Origin: Proluteimonas flavola
GTDB lineage: Bacteria; Pseudomonadota; Gammaproteobacteria; Xanthomonadales; Xanthomonadaceae
Direction: 5' to 3'
Length of the DNA stretch: 64,000 nucleotides
Assembly: GCF_021191705.1 (NCBI RefSeq)
Contig: NZ_JAIWPU010000035.1
Span: forward strand, 1-64,000
In this document: one piece after another, positions 18,041 to 44,714 of the stretch
How positions within the stretch are numbered: the stretch's first letter is position 1
How the letters are laid out: every line of letters begins with the position of its first letter
The notes under the pieces: generated by a model
What the model was told of the DNA's origin: nothing
The model's input: the letters and a program-made list of their open reading frames with translations, nothing else
The model's database searches: none
Made by a program: the position numbers and the translations under genes

Positions 18041-18079
18041 CGTAGTGGATCGTCTCTCGGCGCTTGGCCTGCAGGAAGG

Positions 18080-18141
18080 GGTGTAAATGGGTTGTCTAAT
18101 GGGGGGGGATGGACTTTTTTGGGTGTAAACGGGTGTACTAT
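18080..18141 (+). promoter_or_regulatory. Direct repeats in front of the first Fic gene
   Basis: GGTGTAAAtGGGTtGT at 18080 and GGTGTAAACGGGTGTACTAT at 18122 are direct repeats 42 bases apart, with a third GGTGTA unit at 18132. The second copy contains a TACTAT box (18136-18141) only 7 bases before the GTG start. This suggests either a leaderless transcript or an operator overlapping the promoter. The regulator is unknown; many Fic proteins with a winged-helix tail control their own gene. Confidence 0.45.
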
Positions 18142-18147
18142 TGCTGC

Positions 18148-22692: not shown

Positions 22693-22766
22693 CGCTTCGA
22701 CCAAGCGTTCGACCGTGACTCCGTCTGTTTCATTGATTTCGTCCGGGTGATTTCGATCGACCCTGC

Positions 22767-27114: not shown

Positions 27115-27127
27115 CACGCTTGCTCCC

Positions 27128-29059
27128 TCAAAGATCTCGTTTCAAGAGACGATCAGAAGCAGGAGAGCCCCGCAGTTGTATGGCGACCCAAGGGGCCTGT
27201 GCGTACGCTTGCGGCGGTGGGGTGGTGGTCGTAACGATGTACTGAAACAGCGGGGCCGATCCGAGCGCTTCCAGTTCATGCACAAGATGAAACAGGCCGT
27301 GGTACAGGGCGAGCCCCAGATCGGCTTCACGTGGGCTGTCATGAAGCAGGAAAGCCGGGAGCCTCGTGTCACCTTCGATGCTCATGCACAGGGTCGCGAG
27401 ATCGAAGGCCACGACTTTCAGCGAGTCGATGGCCGACGTCGAACGATCCCCGCCCATCTGGACAACCAGGCTCAGCCCGTTTCCGGTCAATCGGATCTCG
27501 CCGCTGGCTTCAGGTCCGACCAAACGTCGAATGATCGGGTCGAACTTCTGGGCAAGCTTCGAGAAAGCGGTCGCATTCTGACTTTGCAGCGCCGCGATCC
27601 GCTCTCGCGCTTGCTCAATCTCGGTTTGGTGCCTGTCCAGGCGGGCTTCGGCAGATTGCTGCTGTTCGAGCAGCGAGGCCAGGCGCTCTACATCGTCCGC
27701 CGCCTTGCGCGCGGCATACCACGCCCCATCGCGCTGCTCGCGAAGCTTCAGCAGGTTCTGGTAATGCTGCTCCCTGCGCGTTGCATCCTGTTTCGCCAAC
27801 GCCAGCTCCGGCTTTAACTGATTCAGCAGGGATTGGGCCGATTCGAGGCGAGCCTGCTCATCCTCCAGTGTCTTTCTACCGCTCTCCAACCTGGCTTTGC
27901 AGGCCTCCAGGTCTGGAACCTTGTGTGACAACCCGCATTGGCTCGCCAGCACGCGGTCAATGGGTACCTCGCAAATGGGACAAGGATAATTTTCTGCTTC
28001 CTTGAGCGAGTAGGCCAAGGTCGGATATTCGCCCTTGATCGCGGATACCGCACGCTCGATGGCTGGTATCACAGCCTCTTGCCTTCCGATATCAGCCTGG
28101 ATTCTTGCCACCTCAGCTTGGGCATCTTCGTGCGCCTGCCGCACGGAATCAATATCCGGAGTTGCGCCCGCACCGCTGGACTGGGTTTGCGCTGCCAATC
28201 GCTCCTGCGCCGCCCGACGCAGGATTTCGACACCCAGAGTGCCCTGCGCAAGTTCATCGTCTGTAACGCCAAGCACTTCCAGGAGCTGCTTTCTCAGCTT
28301 GCGGATCTCCCAGGCGCGATGGCCTATTTCCTGCTCCTGGCTACGGCTCGACTCGCTCATCGCGGCGATGTCGACGCGGAGCGCCTGTTCGGAAGGGTCG
28401 ATGGCGTTCAACAGGGCCCGTAGTGCCTCCAGCCTCTCGGTTCGATTCAGCCCCCGCGCCGGCGACTCCGAGTCGGATAGCGAGGATCGCCATTCAAGAA
28501 CATGGTCGAATCTGCATTCCTGGTCCCTGCTCAACAGCGCCAAGGCAATCTGCCAGGCCTGATGCCCTTGTTTCTTGCCAGCGATCAGATCCCTGACGCC
28601 TGGTGTCAGCAGATTCTCTTCGATGGCGTTGAGCAACGGAGACAGGCCCGTAGCCGGCATTTCGCTGAGAACAAGCTCATCGAGATTGCCATCCAGTACC
28701 GCGAAATGCCGCCGCCGGATGCCCAAGGGTCGAAGGACGGCCCAACAGGCGCCATCCAGCACGACTTCCATGCCAACCCATCCGTTGGGGAATGCCGAAC
28801 CGATTCCATTGCGCTGATCTTCGGGAGCGAACTTGTCCTCGCCCAGGCAATAGCGCAGCAGCCTGCAGAACAAGGTCTTGCCGCCGCCATGACCGATGCC
28901 GTTGTCGTCTGGCGTCCAGACGATGTTCAGGCCTGGACGTAATGGAACATCCCGCAAGGGCGGCTCTCCAGGTTTTTCCCAGATCACCAGCCGCCTCACC
29001 CATAAACGTGGCTCATGCATCTGTGCCGGCGGAGTGAGGAATAGCGGTTGCTGGAACAT
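27128..29059 (-). CDS. SMC/Rad50-like ATPase with zinc-hook motif
   Basis: A 643-residue protein with an ABC-type ATPase head split by a coiled coil. The Walker A is GIGHGGGKT near residues 55-62. Helical coiled coil runs from about 230 to 520, rich in Gln/Arg/Glu. A CPIC motif near residue 358 is a Rad50-type zinc-hook candidate at the coil turn. The C-terminal head has a Walker-B-like FLLHDSPREADLG near 570. ATG at 29059 comes one base after the methylase stop; a TTG six codons upstream, overlapping the methylase, is an alternative. It probably senses or loops DNA for the partner nuclease, by analogy with SMC-like defence proteins. Confidence 0.78.
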   Translation of the reverse strand: MFQQPLFLTPPAQMHEPRLWVRRLVIWEKPGEPPLRDVPLRPGLNIVWTPDDNGIGHGGGKTLFCRLLRYCLGEDKFAPEDQRNGIGSAFPNGWVGMEVVLDGACWAVLRPLGIRRRHFAVLDGNLDELVLSEMPATGLSPLLNAIEENLLTPGVRDLIAGKKQGHQAWQIALALLSRDQECRFDHVLEWRSSLSDSESPARGLNRTERLEALRALLNAIDPSEQALRVDIAAMSESSRSQEQEIGHRAWEIRKLRKQLLEVLGVTDDELAQGTLGVEILRRAAQERLAAQTQSSGAGATPDIDSVRQAHEDAQAEVARIQADIGRQEAVIPAIERAVSAIKGEYPTLAYSLKEAENYPCPICEVPIDRVLASQCGLSHKVPDLEACKARLESGRKTLEDEQARLESAQSLLNQLKPELALAKQDATRREQHYQNLLKLREQRDGAWYAARKAADDVERLASLLEQQQSAEARLDRHQTEIEQARERIAALQSQNATAFSKLAQKFDPIIRRLVGPEASGEIRLTGNGLSLVVQMGGDRSTSAIDSLKVVAFDLATLCMSIEGDTRLPAFLLHDSPREADLGLALYHGLFHLVHELEALGSAPLFQYIVTTTTPPPQAYAQAPWVAIQLRGSPASDRLLKRDL

Positions 29060-29060
29060 G

Positions 29061-32000
29061 TCAGGCTGTGGCTTCAATCCATCCCCCTATCTCGTCAGGC
29101 AACTCGCGAATGACACGATCGAAGTCCTGCCCTCGCGCTTGCAGGAAAACAAGAATCATCTGGGCGCGCCCTTCGGCCCATTCGGAAACAGGCACATCCA
29201 ATTCGGCACCTTTGGCCCAGGTTCCCGCCCCCAGATCTTCAACCAGGTGGCCATTGCTTCGCAGAAAGCGCACAGCCTTGCCCCAAGCCTGATTGGCACG
29301 CGGTACGAAGCTCAACACCGCCCCGGAGAGCGGCCTGGCTTCTTCGCCTATCAGACGCTGCCAATCCAGAGCATCCTGCGCATCCAGCAAAGGCGTCATC
29401 AGCCTTGGCTCAAGCGCCAGGACGGCGGCGAGGCGTACATGGCGCACTGGCCATGGGGTCTCGGCAACCTTGAGCAAGGCGGCCAGGGCCACCCCCGTCT
29501 CCGCACCTTCATCCTGTTGTGGTCGTGCCCAGATTCCATCAGGCAGGGATGCTCGATCGACGACCTGCCGAACCTTGGCTTCAGCATGAGCAGGCAATGC
29601 GTCTTCTACCTGGAAACCTCGCTTGAAGGCTTCCAACACCAGATGCTGGGTGCGGTACTGCACGTGATCGCGACGGGTTTCGCCATCGACACTGGCCAAT
29701 CGAACGGGCGTGGGTGACACCTCCCTGTAAGCCCCGAAATCCCGCAGCTCATTGTTTCGGAGCACACGAAAAGTCTCGCTGGGATAGTCTTCGCCGGCCA
29801 CGTCGGCCGGATCGAGAATGTAGCGCAGTTCTTCCTCGGTCAGGCCGTAGAGTCTGGCGTAGTAGGCATCGAGTTCGGCACGCAGATGGGCGCGGCGTTC
29901 GGGGTGCCAAGAGAAAGGTGGATCGGTATAGCCAAGGTCGGCAGCCCAGTCGGCCAGGTCGTGGGCGGTATAGGTCAGTTCCAGTACGCGCGGGACGATA
30001 AAAGCCAGGTCGGATTCGGTGTAGCGGTCTGGCGAGAGAATAGGAAGCTGTTTGTAAATAAAGTAATTAAGGTGCGTCCCACCGACTTTATGGCGAGCCA
30101 CAAAATCAAGAGCGAGTGAGCCCAAGTTGCCCAACAGGGCAGCCGCTTTCCGGGAATCAAGGTCTGCTCCAAGTAGCATCAAGGGCATGTTGTTCCCCAC
30201 CCCCGCTCTCGGAATTACCGACGCGATCACGGTGCGCTCGTCCGTGGCACGGCAGATATCCCGCCAACCCATCAGCCAGCGTGGGCTGCGACGGTCCATC
30301 CAGGTATCGAGTTCAGTATGAACACCTTTATCGCGGGTCTCACTCGCGGCTTGCGCGGCAAAGCGTTGCAGAATGGCGAGTTCGTCGTCGGACAGGGATT
30401 GGTCTCTGTCCTGATGGGCCCATTTGGCGAATTCGGTGATGGCCTTTTTGCCGGTGATTTTGTTGTCGCGCAGGGAGATGGCGCAGGCAGGGTAGTCACT
30501 GGCCAAGGTGCGTTCCACACGTGGGGCGGTGTGCAGTTTCCGGGCGTCGCTGTAGCTGCCGTCGGGCTCGGGATTGCCGCCGTCGCGGCGGAAGAGTTCG
30601 CCGGCGACCCACTGGGCCAGCGTCAGCCATAAGGTGTCCAGTGCGCTGCGCCGCGTATCTGAAAAGCTGGTCTGGTGCACGGCCAGCCAAGCCTTGCTGA
30701 CGGTGCGAGGCACGCGAGCGACGCGAGCCAGCACTTCGCGCTGCTCCACCCAGTAGCGTGGGCGCAGGATGAAGGTTGGATCGACCTTTTGCTCCTCGCT
30801 CATGTCCACTGTCGTCAGGCCATCCTGGCTGGAAAGGTCTTCCACGTAGCTGGCCCAGCGATGATCGAACTGGTGAATCATCTTGGCTTCGTATAGGGGC
30901 AGGTTATCCGGTGAATCACCGTCGCGGAACAGGTGGCTGTCATTGGACATGTGGAACATGGTTTGGAAGCGAATCCCCCAAGGATTGGCTCCCGGTTCCA
31001 CGATATCGCCGTTTTCGTCCACCTGCGCTTCGCGTATCAGCACCGGCGCTTGGCGGTAGAGCTTCTTGGTCAGTTCTGCGTCGCGCTGGCTGCGAAAGAC
31101 TGGGCAAGTGCGTGTGTTGGGGTTGATCAGTGCGAATTCCTGCGGCGTCAGGGCGAAGTGGCGGCGAGTATCGGCCAAGTGGCTCACCTGAGTAGCGAAG
31201 CAGACGAAACGGGCGGCTTCTGCCTGGCCCAGTGTCAGCAGGCAGAACTTCTGACGGCTGTCCACAGCCGGGAAAACCCCTTCACGGTTCTCGAAGTCGA
31301 ACAGGCTGACCAGCCGTCCGGATTGGCTGACGGCGGAGAAGAACGCCTTGGTGGAATCGTCGGTGGCGATGCCAGTGGGCACAATCAGCCCCGCTCGGCC
31401 CGGTCGTCCCGCCAGTTGTGCAAAGGTCTCGGAAAATAGCGCATAAGTATTAACGTCACCGACGCCGGTCAGTGGGTAGCGCCCGCCCTCGCTGCCCTTG
31501 ACGTGAACGAAGGCACTGGTGGCCTCAGCGGTACGGCGGGCGGTAATAAATTCCTGGTACAACCGCCGCTCATTGCTGCAAACCAGTTCGGTCTGAACCC
31601 TGTCCGGCTCCAGATGCCGGGCCAGTATCCCCTCGCTCAGCCACTGGATGCGCTGGCTGCGCTCCGCCTTGTTCCTGGCGTTTGCGATATCGCTATTACG
31701 GCTGGCGAAGAATTCCTCTTCTTGCAACTTGATGCGCTCCCAGGGCGGGTTGCCCAGCATCACGCTGAAGCCGCCCTGCGCGGCGATATGGGGGAATGCA
31801 ATCCACCAATGCAGAACACGGGCCAGGACGCAGGCTTCGCGGGCAGTGGCTTCGACGAGAGCCAGGGTCGGCTCAGTCTCACTATTCGCTACGGCCCACA
31901 GGTGGCGGGAGCTGGGGACAAGCTGGTTATCCGCCTTGGTTAGCAGGAAGGCCCCCAGGTAAAGATCAGCCAGGCGCGCCAAGCGGCTTTGACTGGCAGC

Positions 32001-34031
32001 GCTACGGGCCTGCTGCCAGCGGGCCTGTTTAGCGGCCACCTGCAGTAGATCATCGTCGGTGAGTTGCTCCACCGCGCCGGTGCGGATGGCCAGTTGTTCC
32101 TCGCGGAACAGGTCGCCACTGGCAAGTGCCCTTTGCCAACTCTCGCGTTCCCGCTTGTTCTGTTTCTTGAGCTCGCTGGCAAGGGTCTTGTTGTCGCCAC
32201 TCAGGGGAGTGAAGGCGACATCCGGCAGGCCTCGGTCGAGGATGGCGGGATCGAGTACGCCCAACAGGGCATCGCCGCATTGCAGATGGTGATCTAGGAA
32301 GCCCAAGGGCTTGTCGGGCGTCATGGCTTCCAGCCACAGGGACATGCGCGCCAGTTCCAGCGCCAGTGGGTTCAGATCCACGCCGTAGATACAGTGGCCA
32401 ATGACGTCGCGCAGCGCCTGACGGTAGTCGTCGCCGCTGGGCGTGCCCTGGGCGCGCAATTGCGCCAGGTGATTGGCCAATCGCCTGGCGGCGGCGAGCA
32501 GGAAGTGGCCGCTGCCGCAGGCCGGATCGCAAACGGTGATCGACAGGAGTGCGGCCTGCGGGTCGCTGGCACCCGCTATTCGCTGGCGGATGACCGGTTC
32601 CAGCGCGGAATTCAGCAGTTCCTGTACCAGGGGATCGGGCGTGTAGTAACTGCCGCTGGTCTTGCGGGCATTGCCCTGGCTTTGCTCGGCGTTGGCAAAG
32701 CGGAACACGCGGCCATCCTGGGCGACCTGGGGCACCAGTTCCAACAGGCTTTCATAGACGCTGCCCAGCTCTTCCGGCCCCATGTCACGCCAGTTGATGC
32801 GGGTGAGGCTACCGCCGTCAGGTATCCAGGCCAGCCGGTGAGTCGCGGCCAGCAGGGTATTGTTGCCCAGGCCTGCGTGATCCAAATCAGGGCATTGATC
32901 GGTCGCGAACAGGCCTCCCAGTGCCGGCAGCGCCAACAGCGGCTGACCGCTGGCCAGCCCTGCAAACACTGGTTTGAGTGCCTGCCAGAGGTCGGTATGG
33001 CGATCCCAGGTGCGGCGTCGTCGGGTGCGTTCGCGCAGGCGACGCAGGCTGTAGCCGTCTTGGTACAGGCGAATGGCTTCAGGGGCCGCGTGATCCGGGT
33101 GCAGCAGACCACGCTCCTCGATGGTCAGCAGGAAGATGAGCCGGTAGACCAGACGCAGTAGTTGCTGGAAGTAATCGTCGGGCGTAAGTTCGCCGCTCGC
33201 CAGGCGCTGACGCAACGCGCCATTGCCGGCTTCGGACAGGAAGCCTTGGCCCAAGGTCTTGAGCGCATCCTCCACACCGATGCGCAGTTTTTCACGGGCA
33301 CGGGTGCCCTGCTCGCGGCTGGCGGCGTACCAGGCTTCCAGTGCGCATTGCTGCGGCAGTTGCTGGCCTTGGCCGAAGCGGCTGGCGTGGATCAGCAGCC
33401 ACAACAGTGAGAAGTCGGCGAAGCGCTGCTCGGTAAAGATGCGTTCCAGATCGGCTTCGATCCAAGCCGGGCGGGTCAGGCTGGCATTGTCGCGGGCCAC
33501 CCGCAGCGACAGGCCATTGCTCGCGATGCCCCACAAGGTAGTGTCGGCCGCATTGAGATAGTCCTGCAACAGCCCGAAGGCGCTGCGCTGGCGCCCGCCA
33601 TCGCCCAAGCGGCGGTCACGCTCCTCCAGACGCTGGTCGTAGGGAGCGACCACCAGCGGCAACCGGCCATTGCCAGCGGTGGCCGTGAGTGGATAGCTGC
33701 GCTCATCCAGGATTTGCGGCTCGACGCCGGCAACGATATCGGTAACGCCGAACACTTCGCGCAGCAGCTGAGTGACGAAGCGTTTTGTCAATGCCTGGGC
33801 ATCGCTTGCACCCGCGCGGGTGGCGGCGAAATCGTTCCAGTGCGCTTCGGCGATACGCCAGTAGCGCCCCAGTTCGTCGCGCAGATTCAGGCCCTTGGGC
33901 ACCCCATAGTCCGTAGGGGCCTGCTGCGGAGCATGCAGGGCGGCCACCTTGGCCAGCCACTCAGCCGGCAGCAGTCCGCCTTCGATGGCGATCGCATCGA
34001 ACTGCAGCACGGCATCCTTGCGACGGCTCAT
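29061..34031 (-). CDS. Eco57I-type N6-adenine DNA methyltransferase (DrmMI-like), 1656 aa
   Basis: A very long DNA methylase. The AdoMet-binding motif I is CDPACGSGHFLLAAAR near residue 500 and the catalytic motif IV is GNPPWERIK near 760. Both are typical of gamma-type m6A enzymes of the Eco57I/PglX/DrmMI group. The N-terminal 450 residues hold no recognised nuclease PD-(D/E)XK signature, and the C-terminal 700 residues presumably hold target recognition. Its start overlaps the helicase stop by 4 bases (ATGA). It should mark self DNA so that the rest of the system can discriminate, as in DISARM or BREX; that role is inferred. Confidence 0.88.
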   Translation of the reverse strand: MSRRKDAVLQFDAIAIEGGLLPAEWLAKVAALHAPQQAPTDYGVPKGLNLRDELGRYWRIAEAHWNDFAATRAGASDAQALTKRFVTQLLREVFGVTDIVAGVEPQILDERSYPLTATAGNGRLPLVVAPYDQRLEERDRRLGDGGRQRSAFGLLQDYLNAADTTLWGIASNGLSLRVARDNASLTRPAWIEADLERIFTEQRFADFSLLWLLIHASRFGQGQQLPQQCALEAWYAASREQGTRAREKLRIGVEDALKTLGQGFLSEAGNGALRQRLASGELTPDDYFQQLLRLVYRLIFLLTIEERGLLHPDHAAPEAIRLYQDGYSLRRLRERTRRRRTWDRHTDLWQALKPVFAGLASGQPLLALPALGGLFATDQCPDLDHAGLGNNTLLAATHRLAWIPDGGSLTRINWRDMGPEELGSVYESLLELVPQVAQDGRVFRFANAEQSQGNARKTSGSYYTPDPLVQELLNSALEPVIRQRIAGASDPQAALLSITVCDPACGSGHFLLAAARRLANHLAQLRAQGTPSGDDYRQALRDVIGHCIYGVDLNPLALELARMSLWLEAMTPDKPLGFLDHHLQCGDALLGVLDPAILDRGLPDVAFTPLSGDNKTLASELKKQNKRERESWQRALASGDLFREEQLAIRTGAVEQLTDDDLLQVAAKQARWQQARSAASQSRLARLADLYLGAFLLTKADNQLVPSSRHLWAVANSETEPTLALVEATAREACVLARVLHWWIAFPHIAAQGGFSVMLGNPPWERIKLQEEEFFASRNSDIANARNKAERSQRIQWLSEGILARHLEPDRVQTELVCSNERRLYQEFITARRTAEATSAFVHVKGSEGGRYPLTGVGDVNTYALFSETFAQLAGRPGRAGLIVPTGIATDDSTKAFFSAVSQSGRLVSLFDFENREGVFPAVDSRQKFCLLTLGQAEAARFVCFATQVSHLADTRRHFALTPQEFALINPNTRTCPVFRSQRDAELTKKLYRQAPVLIREAQVDENGDIVEPGANPWGIRFQTMFHMSNDSHLFRDGDSPDNLPLYEAKMIHQFDHRWASYVEDLSSQDGLTTVDMSEEQKVDPTFILRPRYWVEQREVLARVARVPRTVSKAWLAVHQTSFSDTRRSALDTLWLTLAQWVAGELFRRDGGNPEPDGSYSDARKLHTAPRVERTLASDYPACAISLRDNKITGKKAITEFAKWAHQDRDQSLSDDELAILQRFAAQAASETRDKGVHTELDTWMDRRSPRWLMGWRDICRATDERTVIASVIPRAGVGNNMPLMLLGADLDSRKAAALLGNLGSLALDFVARHKVGGTHLNYFIYKQLPILSPDRYTESDLAFIVPRVLELTYTAHDLADWAADLGYTDPPFSWHPERRAHLRAELDAYYARLYGLTEEELRYILDPADVAGEDYPSETFRVLRNNELRDFGAYREVSPTPVRLASVDGETRRDHVQYRTQHLVLEAFKRGFQVEDALPAHAEAKVRQVVDRASLPDGIWARPQQDEGAETGVALAALLKVAETPWPVRHVRLAAVLALEPRLMTPLLDAQDALDWQRLIGEEARPLSGAVLSFVPRANQAWGKAVRFLRSNGHLVEDLGAGTWAKGAELDVPVSEWAEGRAQMILVFLQARGQDFDRVIRELPDEIGGWIEATA

Positions 34032-36838
34032 GCAGCACCTCCAGGCATCAGGACATAGGCGGCAATGACGTCCACTGGCTTGAGCGCGCGTACTTCATAG
34101 CGGCCCCGGGCATCGGCGGCTTCGCGCACTCGCCGGTGATCTGCCAGCAGTCTTTCGGCCTGGGCATCGGCGAGGTGTTCCAGTTGCTCCTGACGCTGCT
34201 GCAACGTCTCCAGCAGGTTGTGCATTTCGCGCTGACGCACCACGTCCGGCAGGTTGCCTTGGGCTGGCGCCTCCAGCCAGGCGAGCAATTGATCGCCCTG
34301 GATCTCGACCGGATCGGTACGTCCCTGCCAGGCCACGGGCAAGGCTTCTTCGACCAGCAAGGTCTGGTTGCGGCCCTCCCGGGTGGTGCTGATCTGGTGC
34401 CGCAGGCGCAGCAACAGCACCGAGGTGACACTCTGCACCGCCGGGCTGCGCCAGACGCCGATCCGGCCCAGCGTGGCCAGTTGCTGGCCGTCATGGGTTT
34501 CCGCCATCAAGGAACGCTCCAGCAGTTCGTCGGCCAGGGTGGCGATTAGCGGATGGCTACGGTGGATGAAGCGGCAGCGCGACGCCGGGGGCTGGTTGAA
34601 GTCGATGCGCAAATCGCCGTCCACGCCTTCGGCTGCAAGCCGCTCGCGCAATGCTGCAGGCAAGGCGCTGATGGGCGCGGTAGCTCCGCGGGCGCGCAGC
34701 GACAATCCTGCCCCCAGACGCGCCATGGCTTGAGTGGCAAAACGCTTGACGTCATCGCTGCTGCCAAGCACGGCACGCATGCGCTCCCATTCCGGCAGTA
34801 CGTCAGCAGGCCGCAAGCGGCGCTGGGCAAATACGGTGCGGTTCTTCTTGGCTTTTTCGGCCAGGTCGGTCCAGCGAACGTCGAGTGCCCGGCTTTCTGG
34901 GTACTGATCGAAATCAAAGGAGCGTTGTGGGCCGCCTGCGCGCTCGCTGCGCAGCATCACAGCCTTCATCAGCGCCTGAGTGAGGGTATGGTCGTCGTCG
35001 GGCAGTGGCACCGGCACGCCCAGTTCCTGGCGGATCTTTTCCGCCTTGCGCAAGATGACCTGCAGCACGGCACCATCCACCGGGTTATTGGCGCCATAGA
35101 TCAGGGTGGCGCGCACCTTGGGGCTGGTCTGACCGAAGCGATCTACCCGACCTTCGCGCTGCTCATGACGCGTGGGGTTCCAGGACAGGTCGTAATGGAC
35201 CACGGCATCGAGGTTTTCCTGCAGGTTGATGCCTTCGGACAGGCAGTCGGTAGCGATCAGCAGGCGACGCTCGGCTTCGCCCAGGGCATCGACACGGCGC
35301 TCCCGCTCTGCGGCCGGAAATTCACCCGTCACCACGTCCACGGTGACGCCTCGGAATCTGCCCGCCAGATGGTCATGCAGGTAGCGGGCGGTGGCGATGT
35401 AGCGGCAGAACACCACGGGATTGAAGCCATCGTCGATAAGCTGTTTGAGATGGCTGCCGAGCAGGCGCAGTTTGGGATCGCTCTCTTCGCCGGCCAGCGT
35501 CTCGGCCTTGTTCAACAGGTCGAGCAGGGCAGGATCGCCGATGTCAGCGGCTGGCACCACATCGTCTTCGCTCAGAGCATCTTCCGTGCCATCGAACAAC
35601 GGGCCGAGGATCTCTTCAGGCGCCTGTTCCACCTGCTCGGCCAGCAGGCGGGTGCGCAGGGCCTGTACGGCCGCCGCCGGGCTGCTGGCGACGCAGCGCA
35701 TCAGCGCCAGCGTGCCCCAGAAGCTGAGGCGCTGACTCCGCTCGTCCCCACCGGCGCGTTGCACCACTTCACGGCAGTAGTCGAGCACGTCCTGAAAGAA
35801 GTTTTCCCACAGGCCACCAAGGCGATAGGTCAGCTCGGCCGTTTCGCGCTGGGGGAAGATGCTGCCGTCCTGCCATTCGTCGATGTCGGGTCGGCGCCGC
35901 TGCACGAAATGCAATGCCAACTGATCGCGCAGCCGTTCCTTGGTATCGCCGCTGGCTGTCGCCAGCGCAGCGAACTCCGGCTTCAACAGCCCCAGCAAGC
36001 TGTAGAACGTGTCCTGGTCGCCGCTGTGAGGAGTGGCGGTGAGCAGAACCAGGTGGCGTGCTTCGTTGGCTGCCAACGCACGCAGCAGCTCGAAGCGCAG
36101 CTGCCGGCCCTGGCCCGCGCTGACGCAGGTGTGGGCTTCGTCGACGATGACGAATTCCGGGCAGGCGCGGATGAAGTCGTGACGATGGCGCTCGGACTTG
36201 ATGTAGTCGAGACTGACGACGGTGACCGGATGCACCTGAAACAACGATTCACCGACCGGGATGCCTCGCTCCAATCGGGCCGCACTGGTCGCGGTGACAG
36301 CAACCGCGTGCAGGTGAAAGCGGTCGTTGAGTTCGCGCACCCACTGTTCGACAAGGTGCGGCGGACACAAGATGGCCATACGCTGGATCTCGCCGCGATC
36401 CTGCAGTTCGCGTGCGATCAGGGCGGCTTCGATGGTCTTGCCGATCCCCACGTCGTCGGCGATCAACAGGCGCACCGGATCAAGACGCAACGCCATCAAC
36501 AGCGGCACCAGTTGATAGGTACGCGGTTCCACCGCGATGTTGCCGAAGCTGCGGAAAGGGCCGGCACCGCGACGCAGCGCCATGCGCAGCGCATCGGAGA
36601 GCAGGATGGCTTCGCCCTGACTGCCCTCCAGCGAGGGATCGGGTGGTGGGAAGTGAGCGGATTCGATGCCAGGTTCCAGATCGATGTGGATCAGTGCGCC
36701 CTCTTCTTCGGTGCCGGACAAGGGCCGCAAGCGCAACAACGGAGGAACGCTGCCTGGCTGCACGATCCATTCGCGCCCGCGCGCATGGATCAGCGAACCC
36801 GGGGTGTATTGAGGAATGGACATCTCGATGGTTCTCAT
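34028..36838 (-). CDS. SNF2-family DEAD/DEAH helicase (DrmD-like), 936 aa
   Basis: A Swi2/Snf2-type ATPase. Motifs: DDVGIGKTIEAAL near 128 (Walker A), VIVDEAHTC (DEAH) near 230, LLTATPHSG near 265, and in the second RecA lobe VVFCRYIATARYL, ATDCLSEGINLQ and QREGRVDRFGQ. The long C-terminal region is Leu/Arg-rich and presumably partner-binding. The start at 36838 is chosen because its ATG overlaps the upstream stop as ATGA; an upstream in-frame extension to 37306 is antisense-like overlap within the preceding gene and is rejected. DISARM class 1 has an SNF2 helicase (DrmD) next to its methylase, as here. Confidence 0.9.
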   Translation of the reverse strand: MRTIEMSIPQYTPGSLIHARGREWIVQPGSVPPLLRLRPLSGTEEEGALIHIDLEPGIESAHFPPPDPSLEGSQGEAILLSDALRMALRRGAGPFRSFGNIAVEPRTYQLVPLLMALRLDPVRLLIADDVGIGKTIEAALIARELQDRGEIQRMAILCPPHLVEQWVRELNDRFHLHAVAVTATSAARLERGIPVGESLFQVHPVTVVSLDYIKSERHRHDFIRACPEFVIVDEAHTCVSAGQGRQLRFELLRALAANEARHLVLLTATPHSGDQDTFYSLLGLLKPEFAALATASGDTKERLRDQLALHFVQRRRPDIDEWQDGSIFPQRETAELTYRLGGLWENFFQDVLDYCREVVQRAGGDERSQRLSFWGTLALMRCVASSPAAAVQALRTRLLAEQVEQAPEEILGPLFDGTEDALSEDDVVPAADIGDPALLDLLNKAETLAGEESDPKLRLLGSHLKQLIDDGFNPVVFCRYIATARYLHDHLAGRFRGVTVDVVTGEFPAAERERRVDALGEAERRLLIATDCLSEGINLQENLDAVVHYDLSWNPTRHEQREGRVDRFGQTSPKVRATLIYGANNPVDGAVLQVILRKAEKIRQELGVPVPLPDDDHTLTQALMKAVMLRSERAGGPQRSFDFDQYPESRALDVRWTDLAEKAKKNRTVFAQRRLRPADVLPEWERMRAVLGSSDDVKRFATQAMARLGAGLSLRARGATAPISALPAALRERLAAEGVDGDLRIDFNQPPASRCRFIHRSHPLIATLADELLERSLMAETHDGQQLATLGRIGVWRSPAVQSVTSVLLLRLRHQISTTREGRNQTLLVEEALPVAWQGRTDPVEIQGDQLLAWLEAPAQGNLPDVVRQREMHNLLETLQQRQEQLEHLADAQAERLLADHRRVREAADARGRYEVRALKPVDVIAAYVLMPGGAA

Positions 36839-39800
36839 AGCCCCAGCAGACGACCCAGGCGCTGGAACAGCATCGGCCAGGCGTCGGTGTCGGCAGGGAA
36901 ACGGATAAAGGTATAGCCGCGGTCTTCCCAGGCAGCCTGCAAGTCGCGCGGGGTATCGGGCAGGGCGATGGCGGCGTAGTGATCGGGCCAGTGCAACAAG
37001 GTGAGGCCTTCGATATCCACGCTTGCCGGGGGCGGACCATCCGGCAGATGCGTAGTCGCCGCCTGTCGCCACTGGCCTGCCCAGCCTGACGAGGCTTCCG
37101 GTTCGGGGGGCAGTAAAGGTTCGGCCTCTTGCTGCTGAGCCATGGATTCGACCTGTGCCAGGCGCCAGAGAATGTGAACCGCTTCGGCGTCGCGGCGATC
37201 GATCAGTTCGTGGTCGGGCTGGTTGTAATAGGACAACAGGCAACGGTAGCACCCCGCGACGCAGCGAGTGTCCGGCTGTTCCTGGCGGCTCTCGAACGTC
37301 GGCCATTGGCCACCGTCGACCGGTACGTCGTAGTGCATGATGCGCAACGCGTAGCGCGCCGCCTGTTGCAGCGCCAATGGATCGTTGACCAGCCGGGTAA
37401 GCACGCCTGCGCCGCCTTCGGTCGCTTCATAGAACAGCACGCCATTGCGGTGGCGGAGATCGGGCAAGGCCTCGGCCAGCAACTCAGCCTCTTCGAGCTG
37501 GAAGGCTGCTTCAATGCCACGCTTGAGCGCATGCTGCAGGGTGACGAAGGTCTGTTCATCCCAGGCGCCGCAAGGTTGCAGCAGCAGGGCGTTCTTGTGA
37601 TCCTGGACATAGGGAACAACGCGTTGCGGTGGCAGGCGATCCCCTTCGTTAGCGGTGTTGGCCGAACGACGCTCCTCTCCTTCCCACCACCCCGTCCGGG
37701 AGTTGATGAAGAAGCCGAAGTCATTCGGTTGCCGACGCCGGCGCAATCCCTTGTTGATGCGGGTAATGGTGGCACCGGCACCGTAGCGCAGGGTACATAT
37801 CTCGCCTTCGCTGTCTCTGGCCAACACGGTGCGCACGTCGATGCGGCGATTGCGGATCGCCCAGCGGAAGGTGGTCTGCAGCTCGAAGGCCTGGCGCTGG
37901 CGCTCCTCGTCGTTGGCGGTGATGCGCTCGGTGGGCTCGGTATCGACGTTGTCGATGCGATACAGGCTGTTGATCTTCAGCGCATCCAACAGCGATTGGT
38001 CGCAGGCGTGACAGTCGTTCCAATGGGACTCGAAGTGCGCGGCGCCGCAGTTCGAGCAGATGCGTACTGACTGGGTGCTAAGCGTGCCACCGGCACTGCC
38101 GGGATCATCGGACGACAAGGCAATGCGAGCGCGAACCACCCTGTAGGCACGGCCTTCGTGATACACCAGGCTGCGCGGTCCGAACTCGGAAAGCGCCAGA
38201 AAGCGCGGGCGCTGCAGGAAGGTATTGCCACCCCGCACATCGGCACGACCGGGCACGTAGGCCATCAGCGGCAGCCGCGGAAAATTGTAGCCTGGGAGGA
38301 AGCCCTCGGTGGCCAAATAGCGGTAGGTGTAAAAATCGCTGGAGAAGGAGTCGCGGCCGTGCAGGAGCAGCTCGATCTGATCGGAGGCCTGCCGCCAACG
38401 GCGCTTGGCATCGTCGCGCTCGCGCTTATCGGTGATGGCGTAGTTGTTCAAGGTTTCGTTGGCCAAGCGCTTTTGCCGCTCCGCCGACGTGAATAGATCC
38501 CGCCAGCGATTGAACGCACGATGGAAGGCCTCCGGTGCCGATGCAATGGCGGCCTGAGCATAGGCCTGGCAATCGGTGAACCACGGAGCGCGTTCGGGCG
38601 TCAGGTGTTCCTCCACCATGTGCAGCACGTTGATGGCTTGCCGGGTCGCTTCGGCCGTCACCCCCTCCTGACCCAAGGCTTCGACGATGTGCGCTCGCAC
38701 GGGCAGTTGCGGTACGCCGGGATCGACGATGTTGGAAATCGAGCTGTCGAGCTCCTTGCGGCTGGCGGCCAGCCAGACAGCCTGTAGATGGCTCTGGATC
38801 AGATCCTGGTTGGCCAGATCCAGCAGCGGCGCCTTGACCACGCCATGCACCATGGCGGTGGGGTCACGGAAGAAATACTGGTCATGCGGGCTGCGCGCGG
38901 CGCAGTAGGTCACCACCAGCGCCGCCTGACCACTGCGTCCGGCACGGCCGGCGCGCTGCACATAGTTGGCGGGCGTGGGTGGCACATTCCGCAGGTACAC
39001 GGCATTCAGCGCCGAGATATCCACGCCCAGTTCCATGGTCGGTGAGCAGAACATCAGGGGCAGGAAGCGCGTGGGCTCGCCCTGCTTGTGGGCGATATCG
39101 TGCAGTTCGCCGTCGGTCAATGCTTCCCGCTCGCTGTTGCCGAAGCGAAAGCGGCTTTCGCGCAGCGCACGCAGTTCACCATCGACCTGAGCGGTATGTT
39201 CGCGTGCCTCCAGCCCGAACAGGAAACGATCCCGTTGCCCAAGCATCGCGGCGATGGCTTGGTATTGCTGTTTGAAGAACGCGTTCGGCCGGGTGCCGGA
39301 TGCATCGCCCAGATGGAATCGCACCCGGCCGGCATTGAGCCGAAAGCCCGGTACGTTGAACAGAGTGTGTTCATCCCTGCGAATGAATCCGCCCTCTTGT
39401 GCGGCGCGGATCATGGCGTTCAGCAAGGTCTGATAGTCGGCACGTCGCAGGTTGGCCGCCGCCGGCTGCTCCCATATGGTCGAGCTACGCAGGCTCTTGC
39501 CCAGGGCCGTCTGCAGCCCGCCGCGCAGCACCAGTTCTTCATCCTTGCCGCGCAATGCATTCGCATTGGGAGGCTGAAGGAACAGCCAGCGCCAACCGAG
39601 CAGGCGCTCTTCCCGGCCGATGCCCCATGGGTTGCGCAGCAAGCGCAAGGCTTCGTCCTTACGCTGCTGCAACAGGTTGGGATCGAGGGCGGCGGCATCC
39701 ACTGCCAGCCCTTTGCGCATGTAGTCGAAGAGGCAACGGAAAGCCTTTTCACGCGCCAGTGGCGTCGCGTTTCGCAGCAGGTCAGGCGCTTTGTCGAAAC

Positions 39801-42102
39801 GCACCGCCTCATTGCAGAATGCCTGCAGGCCGGAGTAGTCCGCTTCCAACAACCCCAGTTCTTCCAGGTTCGGATTGGTATAGCGCCAACCACGACGCTG
39901 ATCGAACCAGGCGCGGTACGCGAGCACGAAGCGCAAGGCTTCCTCCGCATCGGCTAGATTCCGACCGACTGATTGCGGTTCCTGCATCCACTCACCCCGG
40001 TGGCTTTCTTCCGGGGTTTCCGTCGTGCTCAGTGGCTGATCGAAGCCCAAGGCCGCTCGCACTGCCGCACCCAGTCCACTGTCGCCCAAACCCGCCGCGC
40101 CAGCTTGTACCAGCGCCCGATAGATGGCGCCGCGCAACAGACTGACGAAGGTGAAATCATTGAAATGGCCCGCCTGGAGCGCTGCATCCTGGCGGTTGTC
40201 AGTGAAGCCGAGCAGTTTTCGCTTGTCCGAGCCAATGGATGGATGGCCGTGCATCCAGCGCAGCGCACTGGTGGTCAGCAGCGTCGTCGCCGAGCTTCGC
40301 CCTTCCGCAGACAGTGCCGAAAGACGATTGCTGTCCTTGCCCTGGGCGCCATGCACCGTGCGGCAACGCAAGCAATAACGGAACTTGCCAGGCAAGAACC
40401 AGGCCTCCTGGCCTCGCCCGACTCTGCCATTGGCTTGAATCGAGAGTTGTTCCGCCTCCAGGCGCTGATGGGTGCGCTTGAACCTCACCTCACCATGTCG
40501 CGTGATCTCGATCCAGGACTCCGGATAGTCCTCTACCTTGCCGTTAAATTCGATGGGATCGTTGGCGTTCAGGGGCAGCAGGAAGCCCAGCCGTTCGCCA
40601 ATGGCATCCTCTTCGACTTCGGAGGCGTCCGTGTCGTCGTCCCGCATTTTTGGCATGTCGTCGATGTCGCGGGCTAGCACCTCCCAACCGGCATCGTCCC
40701 GACGCATCCTGACCGGGTGGTACTCCTGCCCACAATCCCGGCAGAAGTGCGTGGAGTACAACCGTTTTTGCTCATCTCCAGGCAGGAACTGCTGTCCCTC
40801 CAACTCAACGGGGCGTGTCCCTGGGGCATCGAGGGTCGTGAACACGACGCCAGCACCGCTGATGAACTGGTGGAGACGAAAGGCGAAGAAGGCTTTTTCG
40901 CTGCCGTGCCCGTCGGGACGACGACTCTTTTCGGGTTGGGCTGCCAGCAGCAGCATGGCGCGCAGCATGGCACCCGCAATCACTTCATCCCTTCCCGACT
41001 CTTCGGCTAGGCGCTCGGTGGCCTTGGCAAAGGTCAGGGGATTAGCACGAACCCATTTCCCTGCCTGTTCGCGCGTGATGCCAAGGCGTGTTTCCACCCA
41101 GATCGCCAAAGGATGTTGTCGCAACGTGGCATCATCGGCATGCGTGGAAACGCCCGCGTCGATGGCGGCGCCCAGTTGCGATCTGACCGAGTCGGCAGTC
41201 TTGGATGGCTCTGTAGCCCGTTCCAGATCTTCGGTGACGACATTGAAGGGTGATATCTGGGTTGCGAACAACGTGGAGGCAACGGAAGCGACTTTTTGGT
41301 TGCGATCTTCCTGACTGCCGCCCGAAGCCATCGTGGCGGACGTGCCGATGCACTGCAGGTACTCCGGTGCCAGCCGTTCTCGAACGCGCCTCACCAACAT
41401 GGCCACGTCGGCGCCTTGCCGTCCGCGATAGGTATGCAATTCATCCAGCACCAGAAACTGCAGGCCGGCGCAGTTGGCGATCACCCGGCTGTCGGTCTCG
41501 TTCTGCCGAGTCATGAGCATTTCCAACATCATGAAGTTGGTCAGCAGAATGTCCGGCGGGTTATCCCGAATCCGATCCCGCTCCTCCTTGCTTTCCTGGC
41601 CGGTATAGCGCGCGAAGGTTACCGGCCCATCGTTGCCTACGAACTTGATCAGCTCTTCGCGCTGACTGTTGGCCAGAGCGTTCATTGGGTAGATCACGAT
41701 GGCGCGCGTTCTGGGCATGCTGTCGTGGGCCTTGGCGCGCAGCACCGCATCTACGATCGGGATGAAGAAGCACAACGACTTGCCCGAGCCGGTTCCCGTG
41801 GTCACTACGTAACTCTCGCCTCGGTCGGAGAACGCGATCGCCTGTTCCTGGTGGGTGTAGAGGTCAATGGGAAACAGGGCGGCCGTTGCCGTCAGCAATT
41901 CGTTCGTGGCGGCAAGCTGTTGTGTCGAACGCCCCTGGCGATAGCGCGGATTGATCTGTATCAACGGCTCCGGCCAGTAACGGCCGCCGTCATAGGCCGC
42001 ATGAACGCCCGAGCGGATATCTTCCGCCCGAATGGAAGTGAAAGAACTCGCGAACTGGCTATAGTCCTCGATCAACTGGCTTCTGAGTGAGAAAACATCC
42101 AT
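36835..42102 (-). CDS. Giant DUF1998-containing superfamily 2 helicase (DrmA-DrmB-like fusion), 1755 aa
   Basis: The N-terminal helicase core has TTGTGSGKS near 101-109, the Walker B LDELHTYRGRQG near 219, GTSATMAS, and QRAGRAGRSG in the second lobe near 1030. Cysteine pairs suggest zinc sites: CRDCGQE, CLRCRTVHG and CSNCGAAH. The C-terminal 200 residues contain the DUF1998/MrfA signature, CVAGCYRCLLSYYNQPDHE near 1630. In DISARM the helicase (DrmA) and DUF1998 protein (DrmB) are separate genes; here one polypeptide spans both. RBS GAGGAC precedes the ATG, and it starts 11 bases after the Fic stop. Sure of helicase and DUF1998; the DISARM equivalence is inference. Confidence 0.85.
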   Translation of the reverse strand: MDVFSLRSQLIEDYSQFASSFTSIRAEDIRSGVHAAYDGGRYWPEPLIQINPRYRQGRSTQQLAATNELLTATAALFPIDLYTHQEQAIAFSDRGESYVVTTGTGSGKSLCFFIPIVDAVLRAKAHDSMPRTRAIVIYPMNALANSQREELIKFVGNDGPVTFARYTGQESKEERDRIRDNPPDILLTNFMMLEMLMTRQNETDSRVIANCAGLQFLVLDELHTYRGRQGADVAMLVRRVRERLAPEYLQCIGTSATMASGGSQEDRNQKVASVASTLFATQISPFNVVTEDLERATEPSKTADSVRSQLGAAIDAGVSTHADDATLRQHPLAIWVETRLGITREQAGKWVRANPLTFAKATERLAEESGRDEVIAGAMLRAMLLLAAQPEKSRRPDGHGSEKAFFAFRLHQFISGAGVVFTTLDAPGTRPVELEGQQFLPGDEQKRLYSTHFCRDCGQEYHPVRMRRDDAGWEVLARDIDDMPKMRDDDTDASEVEEDAIGERLGFLLPLNANDPIEFNGKVEDYPESWIEITRHGEVRFKRTHQRLEAEQLSIQANGRVGRGQEAWFLPGKFRYCLRCRTVHGAQGKDSNRLSALSAEGRSSATTLLTTSALRWMHGHPSIGSDKRKLLGFTDNRQDAALQAGHFNDFTFVSLLRGAIYRALVQAGAAGLGDSGLGAAVRAALGFDQPLSTTETPEESHRGEWMQEPQSVGRNLADAEEALRFVLAYRAWFDQRRGWRYTNPNLEELGLLEADYSGLQAFCNEAVRFDKAPDLLRNATPLAREKAFRCLFDYMRKGLAVDAAALDPNLLQQRKDEALRLLRNPWGIGREERLLGWRWLFLQPPNANALRGKDEELVLRGGLQTALGKSLRSSTIWEQPAAANLRRADYQTLLNAMIRAAQEGGFIRRDEHTLFNVPGFRLNAGRVRFHLGDASGTRPNAFFKQQYQAIAAMLGQRDRFLFGLEAREHTAQVDGELRALRESRFRFGNSEREALTDGELHDIAHKQGEPTRFLPLMFCSPTMELGVDISALNAVYLRNVPPTPANYVQRAGRAGRSGQAALVVTYCAARSPHDQYFFRDPTAMVHGVVKAPLLDLANQDLIQSHLQAVWLAASRKELDSSISNIVDPGVPQLPVRAHIVEALGQEGVTAEATRQAINVLHMVEEHLTPERAPWFTDCQAYAQAAIASAPEAFHRAFNRWRDLFTSAERQKRLANETLNNYAITDKRERDDAKRRWRQASDQIELLLHGRDSFSSDFYTYRYLATEGFLPGYNFPRLPLMAYVPGRADVRGGNTFLQRPRFLALSEFGPRSLVYHEGRAYRVVRARIALSSDDPGSAGGTLSTQSVRICSNCGAAHFESHWNDCHACDQSLLDALKINSLYRIDNVDTEPTERITANDEERQRQAFELQTTFRWAIRNRRIDVRTVLARDSEGEICTLRYGAGATITRINKGLRRRRQPNDFGFFINSRTGWWEGEERRSANTANEGDRLPPQRVVPYVQDHKNALLLQPCGAWDEQTFVTLQHALKRGIEAAFQLEEAELLAEALPDLRHRNGVLFYEATEGGAGVLTRLVNDPLALQQAARYALRIMHYDVPVDGGQWPTFESRQEQPDTRCVAGCYRCLLSYYNQPDHELIDRRDAEAVHILWRLAQVESMAQQQEAEPLLPPEPEASSGWAGQWRQAATTHLPDGPPPASVDIEGLTLLHWPDHYAAIALPDTPRDLQAAWEDRGYTFIRFPADTDAWPMLFQRLGRLLGL

Positions 42103-42113
42103 CGTCTCGTCCT

Positions 42114-43196
42114 CTATTGATCTTCGTTGATCGTGCTATCAGGGCCGGCTGCCGTAATGCGCTTCCATTTCGCCCCCCGTCCCTTGCCCGTTGATTCGAT
42201 CAACCCTTCCGATTTCATCGCCCGCAGCACCAGCCGAACCATGTCCCGGCTAACGCCTGGGCAGGCTTCTTCGATTTCGGAAATCGAAAACGGCAGACTG
42301 CGCCCCAGCACTTCTGCGCGCACCCGGTCACCTTTGCTGCCGCGGCCACGCTCGATGGTGCCGACACGCTCCTCGAATTCGCGGTAAGCCCGTAGCAAAG
42401 CACCCCAGAAGTAATCGAGCCAGGGTTTGGCGTCGTGCTGCCCCTGATGCCAGCCCTGCGAGCTGGCTTCCAGCGTCTCGTAATAGCCTTCCTTGGTTTC
42501 CTCGAAGATGCGTTCCAGGCTGATGTAGCGACCCACTGCATAGTCGAAGTGGTAAAGCAGCAGCAAGGTCAACAAGCGGGACATGCGACCGTTACCGTCC
42601 GGGAAGGGGTGGATGCACAGGAAGTCGAGCATCGCCAGCGGCACCAGTACCAGGGGGTCGGCCAGGTGCTGGTCCAGCGCGGTCGCGTAGCGCCCGGTCA
42701 GATCGGCCATTGCCATCGGTGTCAGGTGCGCAGCGACTGGTTGGAAGCGCAGACGCGAAGTGCCGTCTGGGTGACGCTCGATGATGTCGTTGTTGGTAGC
42801 CTTCCAGCGCCCGCCCGTTTGTGGCATGTAGCGGTACAGCATGGTGTGCAGTTGCAGCACCACGCCTTCGTTGAAGGGCATGTGCGCAGCGGATTCGTGG
42901 ATCAGCGCCAGGGCATCGCGATAGCCGGCGATCTCTTGTTCGGAGCGACTCTTTGGCGTTGCGTTGCGGATGACCAGGGACTTCAAACGCGAGGGCGCGA
43001 CGACAACGCCTTCCAGGCGGTTGGACGATTCGGTGGACTCGACCACCGCGATCTGGCGTAGGCCTTTCAGGGCTTCAGGCGACTGCGCGGCATACAGCTG
43101 TTGCTTGCCCTGGTACTCGCCCAGTGAGCGCAATGTGGCAGCCTGGGTGCCGTCGAAGCGAAGTGCGGCGAGGTACTCGGGTGTGAGCGAGTGCAT
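42114..43196 (-). CDS. Fic-family protein with winged-helix domain, leader of the DISARM-like operon
   Basis: A 360-residue Fic/DOC protein. The inhibitory motif SSNRLEG is near residue 56 and the catalytic motif HPFPDGNGRMSR near 197. The C-terminal third, FSISEIEEACPGVSRDMVR near 305-323, is a winged-helix domain. An apparently active Fic site with an intact inhibitory glutamate suggests a regulated AMP-transferase. Being the first gene, 11 bases before the helicase, it may autoregulate the operon via the inverted repeat upstream or act as an effector. The same fold, but only distant sequence, occurs in the 18148 gene. Confidence 0.88.
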   Translation of the reverse strand: MHSLTPEYLAALRFDGTQAATLRSLGEYQGKQQLYAAQSPEALKGLRQIAVVESTESSNRLEGVVVAPSRLKSLVIRNATPKSRSEQEIAGYRDALALIHESAAHMPFNEGVVLQLHTMLYRYMPQTGGRWKATNNDIIERHPDGTSRLRFQPVAAHLTPMAMADLTGRYATALDQHLADPLVLVPLAMLDFLCIHPFPDGNGRMSRLLTLLLLYHFDYAVGRYISLERIFEETKEGYYETLEASSQGWHQGQHDAKPWLDYFWGALLRAYREFEERVGTIERGRGSKGDRVRAEVLGRSLPFSISEIEEACPGVSRDMVRLVLRAMKSEGLIESTGKGRGAKWKRITAAGPDSTINEDQ

Positions 43197-43224
43197 GAAA
43201 ATGTGAGCCCAAGCTGTCTAAATG

Positions 43225-43289
43225 GGGTAATCATAGCTTTAAATAGGGCATTGTCCGCAGAAATGCCTCATTTAAAGCTATGATTACCC
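43225..43289. promoter_or_regulatory. Perfect 20-bp inverted repeat before the Fic operon
   Basis: GGGTAATCATAGCTTTAAAT at 43225-43244 is exactly mirrored at 43270-43289. The spacer holds a second inner dyad (GGCATT/AATGCC, at 43247 and 43262). On the minus strand the near copy contains GCTATGAT, a plausible extended -10. The words AAATGGGGTAAT (43220) and AAATAGGGCA (43241) recur exactly, in reverse orientation, at 43391-43402 and 43414-43423. This looks like a set of operators for a DNA-binding repressor, most simply the winged-helix Fic protein. The remainder of the 43197-43508 gap contains no gene. Confidence 0.75.
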
Positions 43290-43508
43290 TGTTTACAGAC
43301 CTTTGCGCAGCCTGACGGCGGGAACACCACGTGCCTGATAGGGCGCTACCGCATGAGCCACGGGCCATAAAGGGGCATTACTACATAAAATTACCCCATT
43401 TAAGCATTGGATTGCCCTATTTCTAGCCGCCTGTTCATGGCGAAAGCAAATGGCAAGGGAATGGCGCACAAGGGACAACGGCCCTAACCAGAAAAGGAAA
43501 GGCCGCCG

Positions 43509-44714
43509 TCACGCCGAGCCGGCACCGATCACCAGATTCCCCGATGGCGCCAGCCTGTCGATGTAGTCCGACCACGCCTGCAACATCTCCCGCCGCTGTT
43601 CGGCGTACTCGGCGCGGTTGTAGACACCGCGCACGCCGCCGATGGTGTGGTTCAGCGCCTTTTCCACCACATCCGAAGGCCAGCCCTGTTCGTGCAGCAG
43701 TGTCGATGCGGTGCGCCGCAAGTCGTGGATGGTGAAGGCGGGGATCTCCTGCCCCTGCAATGACACCTTCAGCGCCTGGTTCAGCGCGTTGCTGGCGAAG
43801 GGCTTGGCCAGGGTGCCACGCCCCGGCAACACCCAGCCGCTGCTGCTGGCCAGCGGCTTGAGTTCCTTGAACAGCGTCTTCGCTTGGGTGGAGAGGTAGA
43901 CGATGTGCGGCTTGCCGGTCTTGGAGTTCTCGACCGGGATGTGCCATTCGCCTTCGTCCAGATGCACGTCCTTCCACTGCGCCAGCATCAGCTCGGACTT
44001 GCGCACCAAGGTCATCAGGATCAACTGGAAGGCGATCTTGAACTGGCGGCGGATGTTGGAGGTCTGCATGGCGCGCAGGAACTGCCGGATCTCGTCCGGC
44101 GTCAGCGCCCGGTCGCGGGCGGCGGCGCGGTAGACATGCCGGATCGGCAGGGCCATGACCGGGTTGGCCTGGATCAGGCCGCAGGTCAGCGCGTAGTCGA
44201 ACATGCGCTTGAGCAGGCCGCGCACCTGGCCGGCGGCGGCGTCGAAGCCTTGCCCCTTCTTGCGCCAGATGACGCTGCGCACGTCCTCGGCGGTAATGTC
44301 CCGAACCGGCTTGCTGCCGATGTGCGGCAGGATGTCCTTTTCCAGGTAGCGGCGCGGCATGGTTACATCCTTGCGGTCGCGTGACTGGATGTCCTTGAAG
44401 AAGCGTTCGGCGAAGTCGGCCACGGTGGCGTCTGCTGCGCCGGCCACCTTCTCCTGCTGCTTTTTCTGCGCCGGAGACTGGCCCAGCGCCACCAGATGCG
44501 CCGCCTCGTCCCGTTTCAGGCGCGCGTTCTTCAGGGTGAGGGCCGGGTACTTGCCCAGAGTGAGCTTCTCGCGCTTGCCACTCAGCCGATAGCGATAACG
44601 CCAGACGATGCTGCCACTCGGCAGCACTTCGACGTACAGCCCGCGATCGTCGCTGACGATGTACGAGGCGTCCCGGGGTTTGAGCGCCTTGAGTGCGGTG
44701 CCTGTGAGAGACAT
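43509..44714 (-). CDS. int: Tyrosine-type integrase of the mnmE-targeting island (P4/CP4-57-like)
   Basis: A 401-residue integrase with the N-terminal arm-binding domain typical of P4-like integrases (LTGTALKALKPRDASYIVSD at the start, GLYVEVLPSGSIVWRYRYR near 25-43). The catalytic domain has Arg in TLVRKSELM near 212 (core Arg), HDLRRTAST near 310, His in ALNHTIGGVRG and the nucleophile Tyr in GVYNRAEY near 365. It stands next to the mnmE 3' end, the expected position for an integrase recombining there. The Shine-Dalgarno AAAGGAGG lies between the arms of a GGACCC/GGGTCC hairpin. Confidence 0.92.
   Translation of the reverse strand: MSLTGTALKALKPRDASYIVSDDRGLYVEVLPSGSIVWRYRYRLSGKREKLTLGKYPALTLKNARLKRDEAAHLVALGQSPAQKKQQEKVAGAADATVADFAERFFKDIQSRDRKDVTMPRRYLEKDILPHIGSKPVRDITAEDVRSVIWRKKGQGFDAAAGQVRGLLKRMFDYALTCGLIQANPVMALPIRHVYRAAARDRALTPDEIRQFLRAMQTSNIRRQFKIAFQLILMTLVRKSELMLAQWKDVHLDEGEWHIPVENSKTGKPHIVYLSTQAKTLFKELKPLASSSGWVLPGRGTLAKPFASNALNQALKVSLQGQEIPAFTIHDLRRTASTLLHEQGWPSDVVEKALNHTIGGVRGVYNRAEYAEQRREMLQAWSDYIDRLAPSGNLVIGAGSA

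Follow-up and report, generated by a model that had tools for sequence, protein, structure and literature searches.

A conserved four-box array upstream of a class II Fic gene as the probable autoregulatory operator of an exchangeable immune operon

We report that the perfect inverted repeat upstream of the Fic gene in the window, that is, the whole 64,000-nucleotide stretch of Proluteimonas flavola DNA analysed here, belongs to an array of four short boxes, and that this array is probably (we would put it at roughly 0.8) the operator by which a Fic-led operon with exchangeable immune cargo regulates itself, one that would be read by the C-terminal winged helix of the Fic protein and through which Fic would repress its own gene. 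The preliminary description had proposed a tight cooperative repression of a long defence operon, most simply by the winged-helix Fic protein. The comparisons below favour this protein as the reader of the operator, through the conserved layout of the boxes, their confinement to fic loci and their correlation with the recognition helix, while binding by Fic, repression and cooperativity are what we infer from the sequences.

The repeat consists of a Fic-proximal arm of 20 bp, GGGTAATCATAGCTTTAAAT at 43225-43244, and its exact mirror in the Fic-distal arm at 43270-43289, separated by a spacer of 25 bases, with a GGCATT/AATGCC dyad inside the repeat (43247-43252/43262-43267), and in all of this the preliminary description was confirmed. 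Two words of the repeat had also been said to recur inverted at 43391-43423; the reuse was found, at 43390-43401 and 43413-43422, and the earlier range was thus off by one (43390-43422). The possible -10 element placed in the near arm was likewise recovered, as GCTATGAT on the minus strand (43237-43230), where a sigma-70 scan picks TATGAT. A repeat search of the window extended the arms to 42 nt at 83% complementarity. Four places in the 64-kb window have exact inverted repeats of at least 14 nt whose spacer does not exceed 100, and the 20-nt repeat before Fic is the second longest; the longest, with 26 nt, lies at 4732-4853 (CCCTCACCCCAACCCCTCTCCC...) and is one that we take to resemble a dispersed intergenic palindrome. 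Among the 82 loci compared below, the exact arm of 20 bp is the longest, the next being 18 and then 14. Only the window locus has perfect identity over 20 bp, and the general conserved feature is the array of boxes. A search of plasmid DNA with the intergenic region as the query gave no match.

The array comprises four boxes of 12 bp, arranged as two mirrored pairs with neighbours 21 bp apart from start to start. Read on the Fic strand, box 1 (AAACAGGGTAAT, 43283-43294, minus strand) and box 2 (AAATGAGGCATT, 43262-43273, minus strand) are forward, and box 3 (AAATAGGGCATT, 43241-43252, plus strand) and box 4 (AAATGGGGTAAT, 43220-43231, plus strand) are reversed. Because 21 bp corresponds to two helical turns, all four boxes would lie on one face of the DNA. 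The sigma-70 scan predicted a promoter CGGACA-16-TATGAT for Fic, one such site being found versus 0.4 expected from shuffles, with the -35 at 43252-43257 between boxes 2 and 3 and the -10 at 43230-43235, both on the minus strand, so that the inverted repeats sit at the -35 and -10 of Fic's own predicted promoter. Box 3 falls within the -35/-10 spacer; the -10 runs into box 4, which overlaps its end and also the presumed start site. The first T, the A and the following A of this predicted -10 stand at 1.82 bits in the 82-locus set. Starting 73 bp further upstream than box 1, three more boxes form a second cluster (43368-43422), made up of box a (AAATAGGGCAAT, 43411-43422, minus strand), box b (AAATGGGGTAAT, 43390-43401, minus strand) and box c (TAAAGGGGCATT, 43368-43379, plus strand).

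Conservation of the dyad upstream of close homologues had been set as a check in the preliminary description, and it was borne out at the level of the array. The set of 82 loci was made up of the best 80 of 144 relatives from a genome scan (78-98% identity), one plasmid copy and the window, and 79 of them carry the four-box layout upstream of Fic, defined as two forward and two reversed boxes with start-to-start distances of 19-23, 20-24 and 19-23 bp; these loci are akin to one another, their effective number being about 37 at 80% upstream identity. The layout is missing in three loci (L058, L083 and L090). Mononucleotide shuffling of the upstream regions, 4100 times in all, never produced it; the box weights had been set after the loci had been viewed. 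With weighting for kinship, boxes 1 to 4 reach 1.35, 1.26, 1.46 and 1.63 bits per column, and the linkers 0.12-0.46.

The boxes were also found to be confined to fic loci in the genomes examined. A tandem-pair pattern searched in the 4.22-Mb genome to which the window belongs matched twice, at 43220-43252 and 43390-43422, both in this intergenic region, and a reversed-pattern control gave 0. In 20 further hand-chosen genomes the pair pattern gave 19 matches in 15 genomes, of which 19/19 lay within fic loci as assigned by pairing contigs by number and coordinates, with a reversed-pattern control again at 0. The other five of these 20 fic-bearing genomes hold variants of the boxes that fall outside the strict pattern. 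A genome of the same genus (L007) has a broken Fic remnant, 89% identical over 63 residues, and no box was detected at that locus at the threshold used.

The Fic protein encoded directly downstream of the array (42114-43196, minus strand, 360 aa) belongs to the class II Fic AMP-transferases (PF02661, 8.9e-14) and carries a C-terminal winged helix; it matches the PADLOC SoFic profile at 1.3e-35 over residues 22-342. The Fic motif HPFx[DE]GNGRxxR is present as HPFPDGNGRMSR and the N-terminal inhibitory motif (S/T)xxxE(G/N) as SNRLEG. Since the catalytic residues (H196, P197, F198, D200, G201, N202, G203, R204 and R207) and the inhibitory ones (S58, E62 and G63) are invariant in 44/44 rows of the alignment, the enzyme is probably active and self-inhibited, as expected of class II. 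The structure predicted from this 44-row alignment (mean pLDDT 89.9, against 38.8 for a single-sequence prediction) shows a Fic core followed by a C-terminal HTH/winged helix, with helices at residues 288-297, 305-311 and 317-329 and strands at 333-336 and 343-346. The winged-helix domain thus predicted spans residues 288-346 (42159-42335, minus strand), and its recognition helix, assigned from the predicted structure and homologue comparison, residues 317-329 (42210-42248, minus strand). The nearest solved structure, PDB 8uqu, is the N-terminal domain of a Fic family protein of Bordetella bronchiseptica and is 96% identical over 253 aligned residues; residues 1-283 are ordered in it, and the winged helix lies outside the ordered part. 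A literature search on 8uqu found no paper. The other fold matches cover mainly the Fic core, and PDB 7xux, which we take to be the Yersinia protein CccR, is 22% identical to the window Fic over 250 residues.

Covariation of the recognition helix with the operator, a check named in the preliminary description, was found, at a modest level. Distant Fic-wHTH homologues were gathered from plasmids, viral contigs and genomes; of 88 candidates, nine lacked a start or were too short and were left out, and the 79 with usable upstream DNA were reduced to 51 at 85% identity. A dyad at P <= 0.05, judged against a shuffle that preserves dinucleotides only approximately, precedes 25 of the 50 distant homologues (window excluded), whereas control genes drawn from these loci have one in 16 of 90 cases (Fisher P = 8e-5). 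The other 25 homologues are without a significant dyad. At 36% identity to the window Fic or above, 20/38 have the dyad; below 36% the count is 5/12 (P = 0.07), not clearly above controls. Smaller homologue sets gave 20/39 versus 11/73 controls and 26/43 versus 15/87 controls. Similarity of the dyad follows that of the recognition helix when the Fic core is given (partial Mantel r = 0.17, P = 0.0005, n = 51, arms taken automatically), whereas it does not follow the Fic core when the helix is given (r = -0.003, P = 0.51). For the wing r was 0.22 (P = 0.0005), and for the stretch of the domain that precedes the helix 0.12 (P = 0.008, full set). The helix correlation shrank as the set was completed, from r = 0.26 with 40 rows through 0.23 with 44 to 0.17 with 51.

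Pairings of helix and box could also be picked out by eye. The RDMxRxVLR helix goes with AAATGGGGTAAT, and a homologue 56% identical to the window Fic (L185) combines the helix motif RDMIRLVLR with this very box, AAATGGGGTAAT; TTIE/STVE goes with TTCTGCAT, KASVEN with TTCGCCTAA, SSVEGALRK with CCCTTAA and GRSSALAAL with TTGGACGAA. These comparisons point to a modest helix-operator code, real as a tendency and not proven residue by residue. In SoFic-type relatives (about 30% identity), direct repeats of TGGGTGTA were seen by eye; the two copies are separated by two bases and directly precede the start codon in L194, L198, L199, L206, L207 and L209, and in L203 with one mismatch. The window itself holds a second Fic gene of the SoFic type (18109-19197, 30% identical) with a RhuM-family gene nearby (21622-22704), and a similar GGGTGTAAATGGGTTGTC precedes this second Fic (18078-18108).

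Behind the window Fic, genes of restriction type follow on the minus strand. A YprA/DruE-like helicase of 1755 aa (36835-42102; PADLOC DruE3, 2.7e-88) begins 11 bp after Fic, followed by a SNF2 helicase ORF of the DpdE/DrmD/BrxH kind (34028-37306; DpdE 1.5e-199, with DrmD at 7e-78 and BrxH at 1.3e-57 below it), a DrmMI/PglX-like methyltransferase (29061-34031; DrmMI 1.2e-68, PglX 2.6e-14), an LmuB-like protein (27128-29077; LmuB 3.8e-17) and an HNH nuclease (26365-27117; PF13391, 2.8e-12). The true start of the SNF2 helicase is probably near 36.8 kb, because its best profile begins at residue 166. This operon had been labelled DISARM-like, which the PADLOC profile matches and the cargo order refine to ARMADA type I-like: ARMADA type I has the order YprA-like helicase, BrxHII-like helicase, PglX-like methyltransferase (preprint PMC12458937, available portion), and the window profiles DruE, DpdE and DrmMI stand in the same order. 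The PADLOC 2023 output for the window contains no ARMADA-named model.

The cargo differs from locus to locus, while the operator is retained with each of seven cargo labels and also at unlabelled loci of the 82-locus set. Labels were assigned by hand from PADLOC and Pfam on representatives, followed by tblastn of these on the 82 loci. The genes after Fic were labelled as YprA-like at 18 loci (window included), type I R-M at 21 (five of these labels resting solely on HsdM, matched at 32-33%), type III R-M at 6, DrmD-like at 5, PLD-SNF2 at 4, and Cas9 and Schlafen-type at one each. The 26 loci without a label are short contigs, remnants or other genes, and among ten proteins taken from them nine had a Pfam match, including transposases, a transporter and metabolic enzymes. 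At the single Cas9 locus (L086), the Cas9 gene (L086:6568-9762) lies 452 bp after a Fic with the same operator, and co-transcription is unsure at this distance. A Fic tree requires at least 12 cargo changes among the 56 labelled rows, but only 8 of its 79 inner branches are strongly supported. As to location, Fic-led islands often lie downstream of ychF (L016, L020, L060, L065, L086, L092 and others), with an integrase between or absent; YchF motifs were present in 33 of 87 sequences examined and absent from the window, and the ychF-adjacent site looks like an integration hotspot.

A tyrosine integrase gene (43509-44714, minus strand; PF00589 and the arm-binding PF13356, Arm-DNA-bind_3) lies upstream of Fic, with 315 bp between its end and the Fic start. 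The words could accordingly be arm-type sites of this neighbour, serving recombination. The second cluster speaks for such a role in part, as it is tied to the adjacent integrase: of the 31 loci with the cluster, 25 are among the 30 with an integrase match ending within 700 bp upstream of Fic and 6 among the 52 without. (The figure of 30 in 82, not 41, follows the removal by hand of 11 loci whose hits, named L016_1773_490, came from an antisense frame of ychF and not from an integrase.) Because it lies downstream of the integrase gene, this cluster is not the integrase promoter. The four-box array, in contrast, is kept in 49 of those 52 loci and is not dependent on the integrase, although some of the 52 have short upstream contigs or farther integrase matches (L024, L025, L028, L037 and L048) and other integrase families would escape the search. 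The same words moreover adjoin two integrase families about 30% alike, and the dyads track the Fic recognition helix. We consider arm-type sites a very unlikely account of the array. Still less credible is that the repeat works at the RNA level, as a hairpin that terminates or attenuates transcription between the integrase and Fic genes. Pairing of the 42-nt arms is conceivable, but the greater part of the repeat is on the upstream side of the predicted start, a scan of the region for terminator-like sites found none, and it is box orientation and two-turn spacing, not linker sequence, that are conserved.

Two further explanations accept the boxes as regulatory sites, and both appear improbable to us. 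According to one, a host factor or antitoxin encoded elsewhere binds them and Fic is the regulated gene only. Such a regulator has no evident candidate in the neighbourhood, since none of the neighbours recurs at the majority of loci (the commonest gene family in first position downstream reaches 18/82 and the adjacent integrase 30/82) and the 11-bp gap to the next gene leaves no antitoxin gene directly after Fic in the window; it would also have to fit with the confinement of the boxes to fic loci and with operators that change together with the Fic winged helix. According to the other, Fic binds the boxes and activates the operon, for which boxes 1 and 2 upstream of the predicted -35 would be a possible position. 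Boxes 3 and 4, in the spacer and over the -10 and start, occupy a repressing position instead, and the repeats through which CccR exerts its repression are close to its -35 and -10 (PMC9755527, available text).

Based on these comparisons, we propose autorepression by Fic in the following form. With its C-terminal winged helix, Fic would occupy the four AAATGGGGTAAT-type boxes, with boxes 2 and 3 flanking the predicted -35, box 3 filling the spacer and box 4 covering the -10 and the start, and Fic dimers on the boxes would exclude RNA polymerase, so that Fic and the genes behind it, here the ARMADA-like helicase/methyltransferase set, would be expressed only weakly. The second three-box cluster may strengthen repression by looping or as a roadblock. 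A bolder version, which we offer as a rather unlikely speculation, is that Fic and its four-box operator form a portable switch for any restriction-type immune operon, in which the AMP-transferase is the sensor and a change of its catalytic state in infection (release of the inhibitory helix, self-AMPylation or a change of nucleotide) frees the winged helix and opens the operon. The link between AMP transfer and transcription control suggested in the preliminary description finds both domains in one protein, and that alone, whereas for CccR the toxicity and the regulation were reported to be independent (PMC9755527, available text).

Fic-HTH autorepressors as a kind are already known, judging from the available part of the report on CccR of Yersinia pseudotuberculosis, a class II Fic with an HTH that gave a footprint AGATAATCAT-N26-ATGATAATCT in its own promoter and was shown to repress it (PMC9755527). 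According to the same text, class II makes up 80% of all Fic proteins, and knowledge of its function and control is minimal. CccR resembles the window Fic in being of class II, in its N-terminal inhibitory motif and C-terminal HTH and in the inverted repeats near its own -35 and -10, and its half-site AGATAATCAT resembles GGGTAATCAT of the window operator; it differs in that one pair of half-sites stands 26 bp apart, whereas the window has two mirrored pairs at 21 bp, and in having been studied as a T6SS effector, whereas the window Fic gene leads an immune operon (PMC9755527, as available). SoFic shares with the window Fic the Fic domain, a C-terminal domain and the PADLOC profile, but has a small antitoxin gene, AS1, downstream, where the window has the 1755-aa helicase instead (PMC12249575, available portion). 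The main text of the ARMADA preprint, so far as available, does not contain the word Fic and does not describe the leader or its operator (PMC12458937). A search of titles and the beginnings of abstracts, whose coverage excluded most subscription papers, returned no Fic as the operator-bound leader of R-M, ARMADA or CRISPR operons. As far as searched, therefore, what is new is the four-box architecture and the portable leader role in exchangeable immune operons.

In conclusion, one subfamily of class II Fic proteins seems to stand at the head of exchangeable immune operons as a gene that regulates itself, and its operator is recognisable in the sequence. This raises the directly testable question of whether the catalytic state of Fic controls transcription. 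If this is true, ARMADA-like, type I and type III R-M, DrmD-like and perhaps Cas9 systems would share the Fic protein and its operator as a point of control, and the box array would serve as a marker for finding new immune cargo.
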